Under the pieces are notes generated by a model. That model did not search any database and had not been told where the DNA came from. It worked only from the letters and a program-made list of their open reading frames with translations. From a virus: a DNA stretch of 30,377 nt. Each line of letters starts with the position of its first letter. Position 1 is the first letter of the stretch. Shown piece after piece: positions 314 to 10,747 of the stretch. The stretch covers positions 1 to 30,377 of IMG/VR virus record IMGVR_UViG_3300022562_001861. The stretch is one strand, 5' to 3'. The translations under genes and the position numbers were made by a program.

Positions 314-517
314 ATGTATATAGTCACAGTTTGGAAGCAGCATAATGAGACTGCTTTATTAGACGTAGTGAGACATGTTTGCTGGAACTGGGAAGTTACC
401 AAGCAAAACTGTCTCCTTATCTACGTGGGCGAAAACTCTAAGGAGGATCACAAAATTGTGTATCCTCCTGGAGTTTGGAAGGAAATCAAAGCCTACCGAG
501 AAATTAATGAAGATTGA
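314..517 (+). CDS. Small hypothetical protein (67 aa)
   Basis: Not recognised. A strong GGAGG site lies 5 bases before the ATG. The protein is small and soluble, with several tryptophans and two cysteines and no known motif. Its last 11 bases overlap the start of the HerA-like ATPase gene, so the two are probably translationally coupled. Confidence 0.68.
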   Translation: MYIVTVWKQHNETALLDVVRHVCWNWEVTKQNCLLIYVGENSKEDHKIVYPPGVWKEIKAYREINED

Positions 518-1805
518 GCTAGGTAAGAACACCAAAGGTGTAGTGGAGATGGACACTGGGTTCCTGAACCACCACGTTGCTGTTTTTGGCTCCACTGGCT
601 CTGGTAAGACAGGCCAAGTCATCAGCATGATTGAACAGGCAATGCAGCAAGGCGTTCCTGTGTTCATGGTTGATGTGAAGGGAGACCTAATCAATGCTCT
701 TCAACAAGAAGAGTCCATACTTCAGAAGTTGGATGTCAGGATACTTACTCCCGGCGCCACCCACGGTACCTCAGTCAATCTTTTTCTGGGTCTCAATGAT
801 CCTAACACTGGTATGGCTACTCTTGGAGAGTTGTGCGAGTTGATTGGCATTAGTCGCAATCCTATGCGTAGCAAAGGGTTTGCGTTTCTTGCAGCAGTCG
901 TACAGGATCTACATAAGCGTAAAAAGCCTTGTAGTTTGAGGATACTCATGGAGCAGTGCCAGGAGCCTCAAATCAAAAAGGTTGGTGTGCTACCAGTCGA
1001 AGAAGCAATCTCGCCTAAGATGCGAAAGGACTTGCTTCTTAGGCTCAATGGTTTATTCTGTGATCCAGACATGGCTGACTGGATGCAAGGGATAGACTTG
1101 GACATACCCTGTCTACTCGACTCTAACCCTGATAAGACGCCTGTTATCGTTTACTCGGTCGTGCACCTGGTAAATGATGATGAGCGTCTATTCGCGTTGA
1201 CACTCTTCTTTGAGAAGATGGTGGCATGGATGCGAGAGAAGGGCGGAAAAGAGAAGATGCGTGGGGTCCTCGTCGTTGACGAATGCTACGGCATGATGCC
1301 TCCGCACCCGCAGAACCCTCCTACCAAGCCTCTACTCATGACCATGTTCAAGCAAGGTCGTGACTACGGGCTTGGAGTCATTTGTGCCACTCAGAACCCC
1401 AAAGACGTGTGCTACAAGGTTCTGGGTAACTGCCATACATGGATCGTAGGTAAGCTGCAAACTGACAATGACCGCGGACGCGTCCTAGAAGGTGTTGTTA
1501 GTGCTAGTGGCGGGGATAGGCGTGTACTAGGTAAGGTCATGGCTGGACTAGGCAAGCGTGAGTTTGTCCGTATCCACAATGGAGAAGCTTCCAAGTACTA
1601 CTCTCGTCAGTGCCAAGCTCTTCTGACTGGTCCTTGTTCGATTCCTGAAGTTGAGACTATCCACGCTTGGTTTGACCCTAAGTCTTTTGCCAAGAGGATG
1701 TGGGAGAAGGCTCTAAGTGTCTTCAACAAGGATAAAAGCGATCAGAGCCTCCTTTCTCTGCTACATGCGGAGAATAACTACAGAAAGGCTGGAGGCAGTC
1801 CCTAA
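507..1805 (+). CDS. HerA/FtsK-superfamily ATPase (DUF87-like)
   Basis: A 432-residue P-loop ATPase of the HerA/VirB4/TraG branch. Walker A is GSTGSGKT (28-35). A DVKGD strand motif lies at 56-60, Walker B is VLVVDE (254-259), and the sensor region GRDYGLGVICATQNP (284-298) carries the typical ATQ. Relatives form hexamers that move DNA, in end resection with NurA, in conjugation or in packaging. No NurA-type nuclease is visible next to it. The frame is open upstream to 375, but the ATG at 507 is chosen because it places Walker A at the usual distance from the N-terminus and gives an 11-base overlap with the previous gene. The long HAS-barrel of archaeal HerA is missing. The large terminase lies on the other strand, so this is a second possible DNA-translocating motor. 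Its function is inferred from the fold only. Confidence 0.85.
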   Translation: MKIELGKNTKGVVEMDTGFLNHHVAVFGSTGSGKTGQVISMIEQAMQQGVPVFMVDVKGDLINALQQEESILQKLDVRILTPGATHGTSVNLFLGLNDPNTGMATLGELCELIGISRNPMRSKGFAFLAAVVQDLHKRKKPCSLRILMEQCQEPQIKKVGVLPVEEAISPKMRKDLLLRLNGLFCDPDMADWMQGIDLDIPCLLDSNPDKTPVIVYSVVHLVNDDERLFALTLFFEKMVAWMREKGGKEKMRGVLVVDECYGMMPPHPQNPPTKPLLMTMFKQGRDYGLGVICATQNPKDVCYKVLGNCHTWIVGKLQTDNDRGRVLEGVVSASGGDRRVLGKVMAGLGKREFVRIHNGEASKYYSRQCQALLTGPCSIPEVETIHAWFDPKSFAKRMWEKALSVFNKDKSDQSLLSLLHAENNYRKAGGSP

Positions 1806-2663: not shown

Positions 2664-3260
2664 GTGATAGATCAACGAATAACATCTACTTTTAGAGGAT
2701 TCTATAGCGACCCACATTTCGGTCACAAGAATATCATTTCGTTTTGTGATCGTCCGTTTGCAAACGTACAAGTACAGACAGATGAGCTTATCTTGCGTTA
2801 CAACAAGCTCATAAAGCCTGATGACTGGGTCCTATGGCTAGGTGACGTATTCTTTAGTCACAGTGCTTGGGAGGGCCGCAACGTTCTAGAACGAATGAAC
2901 GGACAGAAGGTGCTAGTCAAGGGAAATCACGATGGTAGCGACTCCAAGATGCTTAGCATGGGATTTGCTCTCGTAGTACCTGAAATGCACATCATGATTG
3001 CGGACAAATTGTGCAAGCTATCCCATTACCCTTATGCTCTCACGCCTGATGAAGTCAACAGGCTCAAGAAAGAGGGCAAGCACGTAGATTTGCGTTATGC
3101 AGGTAGGCGTCCTAAGCGGGTAAAGGATGAGATTCTGATTCACGGACACACTCACTCAGCTGAGAAGTACCGGAATAACATGGTTCATGTTGGTGTTGAT
3201 GCGTGGAACTACGGACCAGCACTAATGGAAGAAGTCGCTTCAATCGTTGAAGATCTATAA
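2664..3260 (+). CDS. Calcineurin-like metallophosphoesterase
   Basis: A 198-residue protein with the full metal-binding set of the family: SDPHFGH (D16, H18), GD at 60-61, GNHD (87-90), a lone histidine at 121 and HGHTH (160-164). Such enzymes use two metal ions to hydrolyse phosphomonoesters or phosphodiesters in the cytoplasm. The substrate cannot be read from sequence; compact phage members are often annotated as phosphatases. The start is GTG at 2664, and no ATG occurs before the second motif. Its 3' end overlaps an alternative TTG of the next gene, but the next true ATG lies 10 bases after the stop. It sits in the same transcription unit as the NAD+ salvage genes and might act on a nucleotide phosphate, which is only a guess. 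Confidence 0.9.
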   Translation: MIDQRITSTFRGFYSDPHFGHKNIISFCDRPFANVQVQTDELILRYNKLIKPDDWVLWLGDVFFSHSAWEGRNVLERMNGQKVLVKGNHDGSDSKMLSMGFALVVPEMHIMIADKLCKLSHYPYALTPDEVNRLKKEGKHVDLRYAGRRPKRVKDEILIHGHTHSAEKYRNNMVHVGVDAWNYGPALMEEVASIVEDL

Positions 3261-3270
3261 AGAGGGAACA

Positions 3271-3690
3271 ATGTCAAACTACAGCTGCAACTTCGTCAAG
3301 CTCCACATCCACGGCACCGATCACGAGACCATTGATCGCAATACTGAAGCAAAGAAAATTGCCAACTTCCTCCAGCAGCATCTGGAGGAACCTCTCATGA
3401 ATCATCCGGTCTACGAGTTCTACGGCATTGAATGCGACATGGAGATCCATGAGGGAGAGCTGCCTGCAGCACCTGCAGCACCTCCTGCTCTCCCTGTCGA
3501 TGTAGAGGGGATCAAGTCTTCACTCAAAGAAGCTATGAGTGACGTGCTTGGTGCAGACGCTAATGTGGACGTCAAGGTCTTCACTGTAGGTGACGGAGCT
3601 GAAAACTCTGGTGCCATTCTCAGGAGAATGACGATTGAAGAGCTTACCTCTCTTCGTGATCGCCTCAATAGCGAGCTGGCGCAACGCTGA
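3271..3690 (+). CDS. Hypothetical protein upstream of NAD+ genes (139 aa)
   Basis: Not recognised. The ATG at 3271 is chosen over an upstream in-frame TTG because AGAGGG lies 5 bases before it. There are two parts: an N-terminal region with HIHGTDHE and an acidic-aromatic stretch (1-70), then a proline/alanine linker (PAAPAAPP, about 73-83) and a C-terminal helix-rich region (85-139). Its TGA overlaps the ATG of the NMN adenylyltransferase (TGATG), so the two are probably co-translated. Whether it helps NAD+ synthesis is unknown. Confidence 0.62.
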   Translation: MSNYSCNFVKLHIHGTDHETIDRNTEAKKIANFLQQHLEEPLMNHPVYEFYGIECDMEIHEGELPAAPAAPPALPVDVEGIKSSLKEAMSDVLGADANVDVKVFTVGDGAENSGAILRRMTIEELTSLRDRLNSELAQR

Positions 3691-4658
3691 TGAGTGTACG
3701 AAGACCTGGAGTGGGTGTTGTTGTTGGGCGATTCCAAGTACCGGAACTAACAGAAGGGCATGTCGCGCTTCTTGAAGAAGCTGGCAAGCATGCCAAGATG
3801 TGTGTAGGTATTGGAGTCTCAAGTCAAACTGTCACTCAGGATGATCCACTAGATTATCCTTCTCGTGAACAGATGCTTCGAGAACAATACTATAAAGCCC
3901 AGATACTACCTATCCACGATCAGCCCCTAGACAGGATGTGGGTACAGACGCTTGATAGGATGGTAAGCACCATCTATCAGTTTGCTCCCATCACATTCTA
4001 TCATGGACGTGATAGTGGTTTTGAAAAGGTCTACAAGGCCAATGGTGGTAGATACGAAGTAGTAGCTATCGATCCCGTAAACAACGTTTCAGGGACGGCG
4101 GAACGTGAAAAAGTCGCACATGGTGTGGAAACATCGCGTGCTTGGCGCGCTGGAGCTATTCATGCTGCTTACAATCAGTGGCCTCGCATTAACTTCTGCG
4201 TGGATATTGGGGTTACCAGGCTCCTCAAGACCGTCAACATGCAGTTTGGTCGATTTGAGCTTCTCGTGGGTTCTCGTGTCGATGAAGGGGGCGCTGTTAG
4301 GCTCCCTGGCGGTCATGTGGATATCACTGATAGTGGCTCATTGGAATCTGCGGTTCGGGAGCTACAGGAAGAGACAGGACTAGAAGCTCTTCCTAGTGAT
4401 CTACACTACGTAGGTAACTTCCGTGTTAAGTCTTGGCGTAAAGCTAAGAACAGCGCCCTCTTCACTAGCTTGTACCATGCTGATTACAAGTTTGGTGCTG
4501 CAAAGGCGATGGATGATATTGATCGCGTTCATTGGATCCCTATAAACGCGATTGATGAAGTAAAGTGGGCAGACGATCACTACATGCTCGCAACCCAGAT
4601 CCGAAGTTACCTATTTCGGGAGACATCAAATGAATCTAAACCTACTGAAGAAGACTGA
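3690..4658 (+). CDS. Bifunctional NMN adenylyltransferase / Nudix hydrolase
   Basis: A 322-residue two-domain enzyme. Residues 1-165 are a nucleotidyltransferase with GRFQ (13-16), TEGH (21-24, the T form of the (H/T)xGH signature) and VSGTAER (133-139, the family's ISxTxxR motif). Residues 166-310 are a Nudix domain with PGGHVD at 206-211 and the metal-binding RELQEETGL at 223-231. The first domain joins NMN and ATP to make NAD+. The second should cleave ADP-ribose or a similar nucleotide. The same fusion occurs in Synechocystis, Francisella and as NatV of Vibrio phage KVP40. The Nudix loop between the two motifs differs slightly in length from the consensus, but the REXXEE core is intact. 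It is followed by and overlaps (29 bases) the NadV gene that makes its substrate. Confidence 0.93.
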   Translation: MSVRRPGVGVVVGRFQVPELTEGHVALLEEAGKHAKMCVGIGVSSQTVTQDDPLDYPSREQMLREQYYKAQILPIHDQPLDRMWVQTLDRMVSTIYQFAPITFYHGRDSGFEKVYKANGGRYEVVAIDPVNNVSGTAEREKVAHGVETSRAWRAGAIHAAYNQWPRINFCVDIGVTRLLKTVNMQFGRFELLVGSRVDEGGAVRLPGGHVDITDSGSLESAVRELQEETGLEALPSDLHYVGNFRVKSWRKAKNSALFTSLYHADYKFGAAKAMDDIDRVHWIPINAIDEVKWADDHYMLATQIRSYLFRETSNESKPTEED

Positions 4659-6036
4659 CTCCTACAAAGTAAGTCAGGCGGTTCAGTATCCTCCTGGTAC
4701 CACACAGATCTATACATATCTTTCAGCACGAGGCTTAGCAGACGACTGGCCTTTTGGAGATGACCTCCCTGAGATGACTTTCTTTGGTCTTCAGTACCAG
4801 ATCAAGAAGTACTTCGAGGGTCAAGTAGTCACTGAAGGAAAGGTGACTGAAGCCAAGAAGTTCTGGGACGCACACTTTGGTGCTCCTGTGTTCCAGGCTG
4901 ACAAGTGGATGTATATCGTTGAGAAGCACAACGGTTACCTTCCCATCCACATCAAGGCTCTCCCTGAAGGTACGGTGGTGCCTGTAGGAACGGTTCTCAT
5001 GACTATTGAGAATACCGATCCTGAATGTTTCTGGCTTACCAACTACCTGGAGACTCTTCTCGTACAGCTTTGGTATCCAAGCGTCATTGCTTCACGCTCT
5101 CGGGAGATGAAGAAGATGCTGTATGCTGCTCTCAAGAAGTCAGGAGATCCTTCTCTTATCGACTTCAAGCTGCATGACTTCGGTTACCGAGGATGCACAT
5201 GTGATGAGCAAGCTGCGATCGGTGGTGCTGCTCATCTCATCAACTTCATGGGCACAGATACAGCTCCAGGACTGGACATGCTCATGGACTACTACAATAC
5301 AGAAATGCCCGGATTTAGTATTCCTGCGACTGAGCACAGCACGATCACCAGTTGGGGTCGTTCACGTGAATCTGATGCTATCCTCAATCACCTCAATCAA
5401 TATCCATCAGGGCTGATTGCGTGTGTAATGGACAGCTACAACGTCTATGATGCTACCCGTGATATAGTGGGTGGTAAGCTCAAAGACAAAATCATGGAGC
5501 GGGACGGTACATTTGTGGTTCGTCCTGATTCAGGGTATCCGCCTTATGTAGTTATAGACCTGCTAGAGATCCTTAGGGATACTTTCGGATGCAAACTGAA
5601 CGAAAAAGGTTACGAAGTACTAGACCCACACGTTCGCATCATTCAGGGTGATGGTATTGACCCTGCGATGCTAGAAAAAGTCTTGACTAGAATGATCGAT
5701 CATGGCTGGAGCGCTGACAACATCGCTTTCGGGTCAGGAGGTGGTCTACTACAGAAAGACGCAAACCGAGATACCTTCAAGTTTGCTGCTAAGTGCAGCT
5801 CCGTTACCATTGATGGTATGGATTTTGAAGTGTATAAGGATCCTGTCACGGACACTGGTAAGCGTTCGTTGAGGGGAAAACGTGCAGTTGTACGTGATGC
5901 TGCGGGACTACCAGTCAATGTCCATGAAGACGACATGGAGGGGCGAGAGAATCTCCTCAAGACTGTCTTCATGAACGGTAAGCTCCTGAAGGAGACCAAC
6001 CTCTCTGAAATGCGGAATCTCAGCACTGTGTGGTAG
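4630..6036 (+). CDS. nadV: Nicotinamide phosphoribosyltransferase (NadV/NAMPT)
   Basis: A 468-residue full-length enzyme converting nicotinamide and PRPP to NMN. Active-site strings match human NAMPT closely: SRSREMKK (about 155-162), GTDTAPGL (D210), PATEHSTITSWG (H236), VVRPDSG (R298 and D300) and GSGGGLLQK near 368. The ATG at 4630 has CGGGAG upstream and lies inside the end of the preceding adenylyltransferase gene, indicating coupled synthesis. The two enzymes complete a two-step route from nicotinamide to NAD+, the pathway known in KVP40 and described as NARP2 in studies of phage resistance to NAD+-depleting defences. A GC-rich inverted repeat follows the stop codon by a few bases. Confidence 0.97.
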   Translation: MNLNLLKKTDSYKVSQAVQYPPGTTQIYTYLSARGLADDWPFGDDLPEMTFFGLQYQIKKYFEGQVVTEGKVTEAKKFWDAHFGAPVFQADKWMYIVEKHNGYLPIHIKALPEGTVVPVGTVLMTIENTDPECFWLTNYLETLLVQLWYPSVIASRSREMKKMLYAALKKSGDPSLIDFKLHDFGYRGCTCDEQAAIGGAAHLINFMGTDTAPGLDMLMDYYNTEMPGFSIPATEHSTITSWGRSRESDAILNHLNQYPSGLIACVMDSYNVYDATRDIVGGKLKDKIMERDGTFVVRPDSGYPPYVVIDLLEILRDTFGCKLNEKGYEVLDPHVRIIQGDGIDPAMLEKVLTRMIDHGWSADNIAFGSGGGLLQKDANRDTFKFAAKCSSVTIDGMDFEVYKDPVTDTGKRSLRGKRAVVRDAAGLPVNVHEDDMEGRENLLKTVFMNGKLLKETNLSEMRNLSTVW

Positions 6037-8462: not shown

Positions 8463-8960
8463 CTATTCTTTGGTCGCTTTCTTTTGTGATGGGCCATACT
8501 CTCTTGTTCCTAAGATGTAGTCAAATAGAGGAGACGTTACTCCCCAGTTAGCGTCTTGATTCTTACCCATATGGTGGTCATAATGCCACGGTACCCACTT
8601 CATCGCCCACTCTGGATGCAGGTGAGAATAACGGTGGATAAGGTAGTAGGAAGCTGCCCCACTAATAAGTGAAGATAGCAGTAGAGGACTGAGAAAGTAG
8701 ATAGGGCTGTGAAGGAGAGCCACACCACAAAGTGCTGCAATCTCCTTGCCCGAAGCGCTCCACGTTGGCCAGCCTGCATAATCATCATCCTTGTAATGAT
8801 TCATTCTGGCCTTTCTGTGGTGCTGTCTCCAATGGAAACTGAAAGGACTGTTAGGTTTCTTACCTAATCCTTTTCCGTGCAAGACATATTTGTGTAAGAA
8901 CCACTCTAAAAACTGGACGTACACTGTCCCCAAAACAATTACAGCTAAATCAGTTCCCAT
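8463..8960 (-). CDS. Fatty-acid hydroxylase / sterol-desaturase superfamily protein
   Basis: A 165-residue membrane di-iron enzyme. The histidine boxes are HKYVLH (23-28), HWRQHH (43-48), HRYSHLH (109-115) and HYDHH (126-130), followed by NWGVTSPLFD (138-147), which is typical of the PF04116 family. Hydrophobic segments around 4-20 and 74-106 would place it in the host membrane. Relatives add hydroxyl groups to fatty acids, sterols or carotenoids using O2. The substrate is not readable here. The size is near that of bacterial beta-carotene hydroxylase, but the C-terminal motif favours the fatty-acid group. The ATG at 8960 overlaps the terminase stop (TAATG); a longer open frame up to 9023 lies inside the terminase gene and is discarded. 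Confidence 0.87.
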   Translation of the reverse strand: MGTDLAVIVLGTVYVQFLEWFLHKYVLHGKGLGKKPNSPFSFHWRQHHRKARMNHYKDDDYAGWPTWSASGKEIAALCGVALLHSPIYFLSPLLLSSLISGAASYYLIHRYSHLHPEWAMKWVPWHYDHHMGKNQDANWGVTSPLFDYILGTREYGPSQKKATKE

Positions 8961-10747
8961 TAATCTTCTCCTGCAAACGCGAACACCGCCCTCCTTGACA
9001 GACGCTCTAACGCAATGTTGCAATAATTGATTGCATGCGTGAAGTGGTCTTCACCAGTAAAGACCCACTCAAACTTTCCTGCTCCTGTATCAGGATTAGT
9101 TTCATTCCATCTCTTGATGTAACGGTGCAAATGAATGAAGAACTTTTCTCTACCAATCGCATGTGCTCTAAGACGTCCTGACTTTTCATCAGTACATGTC
9201 TGTACCAGCGCATCAGGATTAGGGATCTGCCAATCACCGTTCCTGAAGCTAGACAGAGTGAGAACAATACTAAGGTAGCGTCCTAACATAGCTGTGTACT
9301 TGAAGCGTAACTTATCTCCTGCTTTACGGAGACCTGCTTTAGGTTGGGGTCTATCCATCCATTGTACTGCAGATGTTCCTTGTGGATTGTAGAAGGAGAT
9401 GAATGCTCTACCTGGATAAGCTGTACAAAAGTCAATAGCTTCATCATAATTAGGCATACCATCTACGAGCGCCATTTGAACGTTATATTCCCTCATTAGC
9501 TCATGGGCTCTAAACCACGGTGAACGTGGACCATTAGGTCCGTAGTATACTGGATTATTTCTCTCTACAATCTCAATATGTCTGAGACGCTTCTGATTCT
9601 TATACTTAGGATCGATATCAGCGATAGTGATGTAAATGTAACCACCACCTTGATCGATTCCCATAGCAGTCTGTGTCTTGCTGACATCATCACTGCCCCA
9701 ATGTAGCTCAGGATTGATGCATGCTTCTAGCTGCTCCAGTGTGACACCACGATTCTGCTCATCTACGTATGGGATACCAAGCTTAGCGTTGTAGAACTCT
9801 TCCTTGTTGGTAGTTCTCATGAAAGTGTCCCAAATCTCTCTCAGAGAGATGTACTTGGACGCTAACTGTGACACATGGAACGACGTATAGTGTGCTGTAG
9901 GGTCTTGTGCGATATAACGCCCATTCTGTGAGTCTATGATCTTGTACTTGCATCTAGGACACCTAAGGTAAAGCTCCCCACGCTTCTTGTCGTCGACGAC
10001 GCAGTCAGGGAAGGTAGCAGCCAGGTCTACGCCGTCTGGACAGCCACAGAAGCTATGCCAGGTGTGCCTGGTGCCTTCCTGAAATCTCATGTCGATGTCA
10101 GCGCCTGGAAGGCCCGCTGTGGACATGTAGATACGAGGAGCTTTGCCTTCACGTTGGGAGTGAGACATACGCTCTAGGGCCTGGTCGATGTCCTTGCTGT
10201 TACAAAGACGTACCTCATCGAAGGCCATAAAATTCATAGGCATGGAGTCTTTTGAAGCCTGACCACCTAAGTGGAAGACATACAAAGTAGACTGACCTAT
10301 TCTACGCAAAGCTAGTTTAGATCTGTCAGCTTGGTACAAAGACTTGACTGTGGGACATGAGTCAATGACGTCACTGAGGCGGTTCTGTGAAGTGATGTCT
10401 GCTAGGTCTCGTGTTGGCATGTATAGACCCGCAGCTCGGCCTTGATTCTTTTCACAGAACCATAGCAACTTCAAAAGCATGTAGCTCGTTGCACCTAACT
10501 GGGCAGCTTTTCGCCATACGATTTCTTCGTCATCACACAAGTAAATTGGTAATAAATACCTGTGATATTCAAAGTCTATTTTATTACCGTCGATAGTAGC
10601 GCCGCTGGTCTGGGTCCATAGCGCAAACGAGTCATCAGAAAGCTTTGCCAAGTCGGCGATGCTGACATCCTCTGGCTTGATCTTAGGCTTGCTGACTATT
10701 ATTGACGAGTTGTACTTTGACTGTCTATTCTCCAGTTGTGTTGTCAC
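8960..10747 (-). CDS. Phage terminase large subunit (gpA-like)
   Basis: A 595-residue packaging motor and nuclease of the lambda gpA family. The Walker A-like region is RKAAQLGATSY (79-89), aligned with lambda's non-classical KSARVGYSK. Walker B is FMAFDE (173-178). A zinc knuckle is seen with C234/C236 and CPRC (263-266). Acidic residues fitting the RNase H-like nuclease are D365 (GIDQG), D429 (LVDG) and D567 (EDH). The start is GTG at 10747 with GAGGGA 6 bases upstream. It drives ATP-dependent DNA filling of the prohead and cuts the concatemer. No portal or capsid gene follows it inside the window, which is unusual for lambda-like packaging blocks. A hydroxylase gene follows instead. Confidence 0.92.
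   Translation of the reverse strand: MTTQLENRQSKYNSSIIVSKPKIKPEDVSIADLAKLSDDSFALWTQTSGATIDGNKIDFEYHRYLLPIYLCDDEEIVWRKAAQLGATSYMLLKLLWFCEKNQGRAAGLYMPTRDLADITSQNRLSDVIDSCPTVKSLYQADRSKLALRRIGQSTLYVFHLGGQASKDSMPMNFMAFDEVRLCNSKDIDQALERMSHSQREGKAPRIYMSTAGLPGADIDMRFQEGTRHTWHSFCGCPDGVDLAATFPDCVVDDKKRGELYLRCPRCKYKIIDSQNGRYIAQDPTAHYTSFHVSQLASKYISLREIWDTFMRTTNKEEFYNAKLGIPYVDEQNRGVTLEQLEACINPELHWGSDDVSKTQTAMGIDQGGGYIYITIADIDPKYKNQKRLRHIEIVERNNPVYYGPNGPRSPWFRAHELMREYNVQMALVDGMPNYDEAIDFCTAYPGRAFISFYNPQGTSAVQWMDRPQPKAGLRKAGDKLRFKYTAMLGRYLSIVLTLSSFRNGDWQIPNPDALVQTCTDEKSGRLRAHAIGREKFFIHLHRYIKRWNETNPDTGAGKFEWVFTGEDHFTHAINYCNIALERLSRRAVFAFAGED

Follow-up and report, generated by a model that had tools for sequence, protein, structure and literature searches.

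If a virus encodes both a nicotinamide phosphoribosyltransferase and an NMN adenylyltransferase (NMNAT), does it rebuild NAD+ in the infected cell, and to what end? NARP2, reportedly described by Osterman et al. 2024, is said to be such a pairing of enzymes in phage. The question is raised anew by two overlapping genes in the IMG/VR virus record IMGVR_UViG_3300022562_001861, whose whole length of 30,377 bases was analyzed and is called the window here. The record is likely an incomplete piece of a virus genome, and no direct DNA match of the window to phages was found; a gene for a terminase large subunit (8960-10747, minus strand) is consistent with phage origin. A fatty acid hydroxylase-like gene (8463-9023, minus strand) overlaps the terminase gene, and a HerA/FtsK-like ATPase gene (375-1805, plus strand) has PADLOC matches to HerA and mad8 as well as a phage terminase-like match. 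We consider it likely that the two overlapping genes form a module with which a tailed phage would salvage nicotinamide and rebuild NAD+ by two enzymes. The basis for this reading is homology, fold, kept core residues, and the conserved pairing of the two genes in phages and bacteria.

The first gene of the pair (3690-4658, plus strand) encodes a bifunctional NMNAT-Nudix protein of 322 amino acids, recognized by Pfam, profile and structure matches. The second (4630-6036, plus strand) encodes a NadV of the Nampt type with 468 amino acids, recognized through Pfam, PHROGs, NCBIfam and solved structures. Read from the sequence, the two genes share 29 bases (4630-4658). The N-terminus of NadV aligns with solved Nampt from residue 3, so the start at 4630 is right and the overlap is real; a GGGAG lies a short way 5' of the NadV ATG. 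The overlap suggests that translation of the two proteins is coupled. Among the 85 phage loci of the window clade, NadV is present in the fetched stretch in 83, and in 46 of the 85 it overlaps NMNAT-Nudix or lies within 100 bases of it.

Does the module extend further upstream? The preceding ORF (139 amino acids; 3271-3690, plus strand, with its ATG at 3271) ends in a stop codon that overlaps the NMNAT start in the junction TGATG (3688-3692). The original prediction had given these coordinates, both genes of the pair, their 29-base overlap and this junction, and all are present in the sequence. It had also joined the upstream ORF to the pair; the junction stands, but conservation with the pair and hence a functional link do not, since no relatives of this ORF were found in the related loci, phages or viral_contigs. 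The ORF is thus translationally adjacent only, and it was rejected as a module member. A calcineurin-like metallophosphoesterase gene (phrog_547; 2664-3260, plus strand) is a possible neighbor of the module. In 15 of 29 strong-match phage records, such a gene and the pair are no more than 8 kb apart, against 4.1 expected from random placement, a count inflated by the relatedness of the records to each other; we therefore treat it as a lead only and have not adopted it.

NadV is readily identified. It matches Pfam (E 1.5e-46 and 3.4e-32), PHROGs (E 3.3e-155) and solved Nampt (E about 1e-134), and its full-length NCBIfam match of 543.5 bits lies above the cut-off of 405. The active-site blocks, which were checked across relatives, are all kept (TDSYK, HDFGYRG, GTDT, EHST, RPDSG, QGDG and FGSGGGLLQK). 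Elsewhere in the family some unusual forms were seen. One NadV ORF of 787 amino acids (L060:1007-3370) carries an intein-like insertion within the catalytic His motif (PA/SEHST). In seven other loci (L002, L040, L067, L070, L072, L080 and L083), a divergent NadV relative with 25-27% identity adjoins the NMNAT-Nudix gene and reads AHRN for EHST and TDFGDRA for HDFGYRG; in L067 and L072 this protein has 878 amino acids.

The NMNAT-Nudix protein is harder to place. Pfam finds the Nudix domain (E 1.2e-8), with a CTP_transf_like match below threshold, and the single protein gave no match either among solved structures or in viral_contigs. An alignment of the protein and its relatives found 80 loci in viral_contigs. 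A profile built from six phage relatives matched solved structures, with the Francisella NMNAT/Nudix protein 2qjt aligned over its whole length (E 4.4e-25) and Synechocystis 2qjo also found (E 3.8e-14). The adenylyltransferase domain occupies residues 1-163, with the motifs TEGH (21-24) and SGTAER (134-139), and the Nudix domain about 164-314, with RELQEE at 223-228. The predicted model has a pLDDT of 93.2 for the full protein and 94.4 for the NMNAT part alone. Full-length superposition gave an rmsd of 14.8 A, which probably reflects a different domain arrangement, and the NMNAT domain alone was compared instead. It matches Synechocystis NadM 2qjo best (Z 16.4 over 155 residues, 3.2 A), followed by Francisella 2r5w and 2qjt (Z 15.1), archaeal NMNAT 1ej2 (12.9), NadR (12.6) and the CoaD group (about 12). 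The Nudix part matches ADP-ribose-bound NrtR 3gz8 (Z 18.1, rmsd 5.4 over 149) as well as other Nudix enzymes, and such structural matches leave the substrate unfixed. As judged from these models, the window protein is an NMNAT domain fused to a Nudix domain, with both folds matching. Its 55.7 bits do not reach the NCBIfam NadM equivalog cut-off of 397, and neither do the 272 bits of KVP40 NatV, which we take to be an assayed enzyme. No enzyme assay of any window-clade member was found in the literature searched.

The original prediction had called the pair the KVP40 NatV type, and on this point the tree led elsewhere. In a quick tree with some long branches, a branch (SH-aLRT 100) separates KVP40, RaK2 and Kabachok from the window clade, which is marked by a two-residue insertion ahead of the HxGH motif and by a shorter linker between NMNAT and Nudix. 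The rows nearest the window are the phage locus L011, at 45% identity, and L127, whose bacterial contig also holds genes for NrtR and CoaD.

Where else does this clade occur? A scan of bacterial genomes yielded 42 cellular loci, mostly from Bacteroidota, plus Myxococcota and candidate phyla; most have NadV next door, and the usual operon order is NrtR-NMNAT/Nudix-NadV. An NrtR-like gene is near the pair in 26 of the 42, nearly always directly upstream, as opposed to only 2 of 88 phage loci; three such genes that were tested contain Pfam NrtR_WHD (E 2.4e-21 or better). It appears, then, that phages usually have the enzymes but lack the ADP-ribose-responsive repressor, in a module that otherwise looks like an NrtR-linked salvage operon of bacteria. 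The two phage exceptions (L005:2855-3517 and L015:9895-10563) raise the possibility that some phages induce salvage as ADP-ribose rises. In two Hymenobacter loci (L126 and L131), an NMNAT-only ORF of 182-198 amino acids, apparently without Nudix, lies between NrtR and NadV. In another cellular locus (L118), NadE adjoins the pair downstream; that genome yielded no NadD or other PF01467 enzyme in a search with PF01467, which misses the window clade there too. There are thus weak indications that some candidate-phylum genomes, which are small and possibly incomplete, have no NMNAT besides a window-type protein. Of what is added here, the link to NrtR-linked operons is of most use, and it renders testable both whether phages gained the genes from such operons and why the repressor was lost.

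How secure is the predicted chemistry? NadV would convert nicotinamide and PRPP to NMN, and the NMNAT half would convert NMN and ATP to NAD+. One departure from this scheme would be a NadV of the Namat type, the enzyme of NARP1, with ADP-ribose pyrophosphate as its substrate. Namat and Nampt do belong to one superfamily with a common catalytic core, and Namat is marked by a selectivity-clamp motif, GSX6TRD (PMC12774641). This signature was not found in the window NadV (GSGGGLLQKDANRD), which instead has the Nampt sequence FGSGGGLLQK; a viral control locus (L001) does bear it, as GSFTYQYNTRD. Moreover, the partner in the window is an NMNAT and not Adps. Namat activity is therefore extremely improbable, and because Nampt motifs are kept and the Namat signature is absent, the window NadV should use PRPP and make NMN; it is predicted from its sequence to be an enzyme of NARP2 rather than NARP1 chemistry. 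Perhaps, however, it is the adenylyltransferase half that is impaired or has another substrate, with NadV, with or without Nudix, still useful and the host completing NAD+ synthesis. The subthreshold Pfam match would fit such a defect, as would the window's TEGH, which has Thr for the first His of the strict HxGH motif, and the replacement of the second His by Gln (HEGQ/HDGQ) in five relatives (L005, L057, L063, L082 and L090), all with NadV still close by. Yet R14, R59, D77, W84 and R139 are present in 112 or 113 of the 113 rows compared, from phages and cells, and the second His, H24, in 108, and the window keeps R14, H24 and R139; the loss of core residues that might have accompanied TEGH is not seen. 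Thr takes the first position in 8 of the 113 rows, one of them the window, and the tree shows no fewer than 6 H/T changes; the CoaD near L127, of the same superfamily and fold, reads TAGH. With Thr recurring in this way and the rest of the core intact, TEGH is not the sign of a dead enzyme; in sequence terms it is a recurring substitution and probably a working variant. The top structural matches are also NadM and NMNAT. The Nudix box offers a further point: intact in the window (R223, E224, E227 and E228 of REUxEE), it has lost one or both residues of its Glu pair in 10 of the 113 rows, through 4 changes, and these rows retain the NMNAT motifs, as seen in six loci whose proteins have lost catalytic Glu residues (L006, L020, L026, L034, L036 and L037), which makes NMNAT look like the more constant function. 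An impaired NMNAT half is accordingly improbable. The complete route from nicotinamide through NMN to NAD+, as originally predicted for NARP2 chemistry, is borne out by homology for both enzymes, and the predicted salvage chemistry is very likely. The clade also offers a set of TxGH, HxAH and HxGQ variants of NMNAT for assay.

To what end, then, would NAD+ be rebuilt? The most likely purpose is that NAD+ would be restored during infection, also after host NADases act, in the manner of NARP2. The same two enzymes may instead serve general metabolism during phage replication, with the additional NAD+ going to host enzymes and energy supply and no particular anti-NADase role, and we regard this tentatively as a real possibility. 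After all, bacterial chromosomes carry the same pair in NrtR-linked operons as part of ordinary metabolism, and neither the pair nor its direct neighbors have a match in PADLOC, a defense library that does not test for counter-defense. However, phage NadV with NadM or NadR has been proposed to restore NAD+ against NADase effectors (PMC9503650), NARP1 and NARP2 are cited as NAD+-replenishing counter-defenses in PMC11984713, and phage NAD+ rebuilding has been shown to counter NADase defenses, as cited in PMC11984713 and PMC12774641. Moreover, NrtR is missing from almost all phage copies, which is what one would expect if nothing may restrain their output. The sequence traces of a general metabolic role would be no different, so the counter-defense use of the pair, as originally suggested, is held as plausible. 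The Nudix half would hydrolyze ADP-ribose or NAD(H), and could thereby send ribose-5-phosphate back to PRPP or cap NAD+ levels. In the window it lacks the ADPR-type FDxPxRS loop that KVP40 and Francisella show in their Nudix halves, so ADP-ribose is only a putative substrate. A bolder version, which we think unlikely, is that phages captured the ADP-ribose-responsive NrtR-linked operon, mostly dropped its repressor, and run the two enzymes as a closed loop of repair. In this loop, Nudix would turn ADP-ribose into AMP and ribose-5-phosphate, and the latter would pass via PRPP to NadV and NMNAT. If this were true, both products of NADases would be rebuilt into NAD+.

How does the window pair, read as a salvage module, compare with systems already known? 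It is real and conserved and is ordinary in kind, phage NAD+ salvage being an established strategy; its interest comes from its separate clade, from the recurrence of the TxGH change and from the tie to NrtR-linked bacterial operons. NARP1 (Adps and Namat) likewise rebuilds NAD+ using a Nampt-like enzyme, but with another substrate and partner and with the Namat signature that the window lacks. NARP2 is much closer, as a phage pair for the same steps from nicotinamide to NMN to NAD+, by homology and context; the window pair differs in that its NMNAT-Nudix falls outside the clade of the Vibrio phage type. KVP40 NadV and NatV share the two reactions and the NMNAT-Nudix domain order, whereas NatV falls in the other clade, has no two-residue insertion and has a longer linker, and nadV is not within the 3 kb examined on either side of natV. 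The bacterial NadM-Nudix proteins of Synechocystis (2qjo) and Francisella (2qjt/2r5w) have both domains, the fold and the core residues in common with the window protein, at about 20% identity, while the window linker is shorter and the FDxPxRS loop is missing. The NrtR-NMNAT/Nudix-NadV operons of Bacteroidota, Myxococcota and candidate phyla have the same pair from the same clade, and differ in the presence of NrtR, no gene for which adjoins the window pair. The pair resembles the bacterial chromosomal operon more than it does the KVP40 pair. With it, phage NAD+ salvage extends past the KVP40 type and takes in a large clade present in huge and uncultivated phages.
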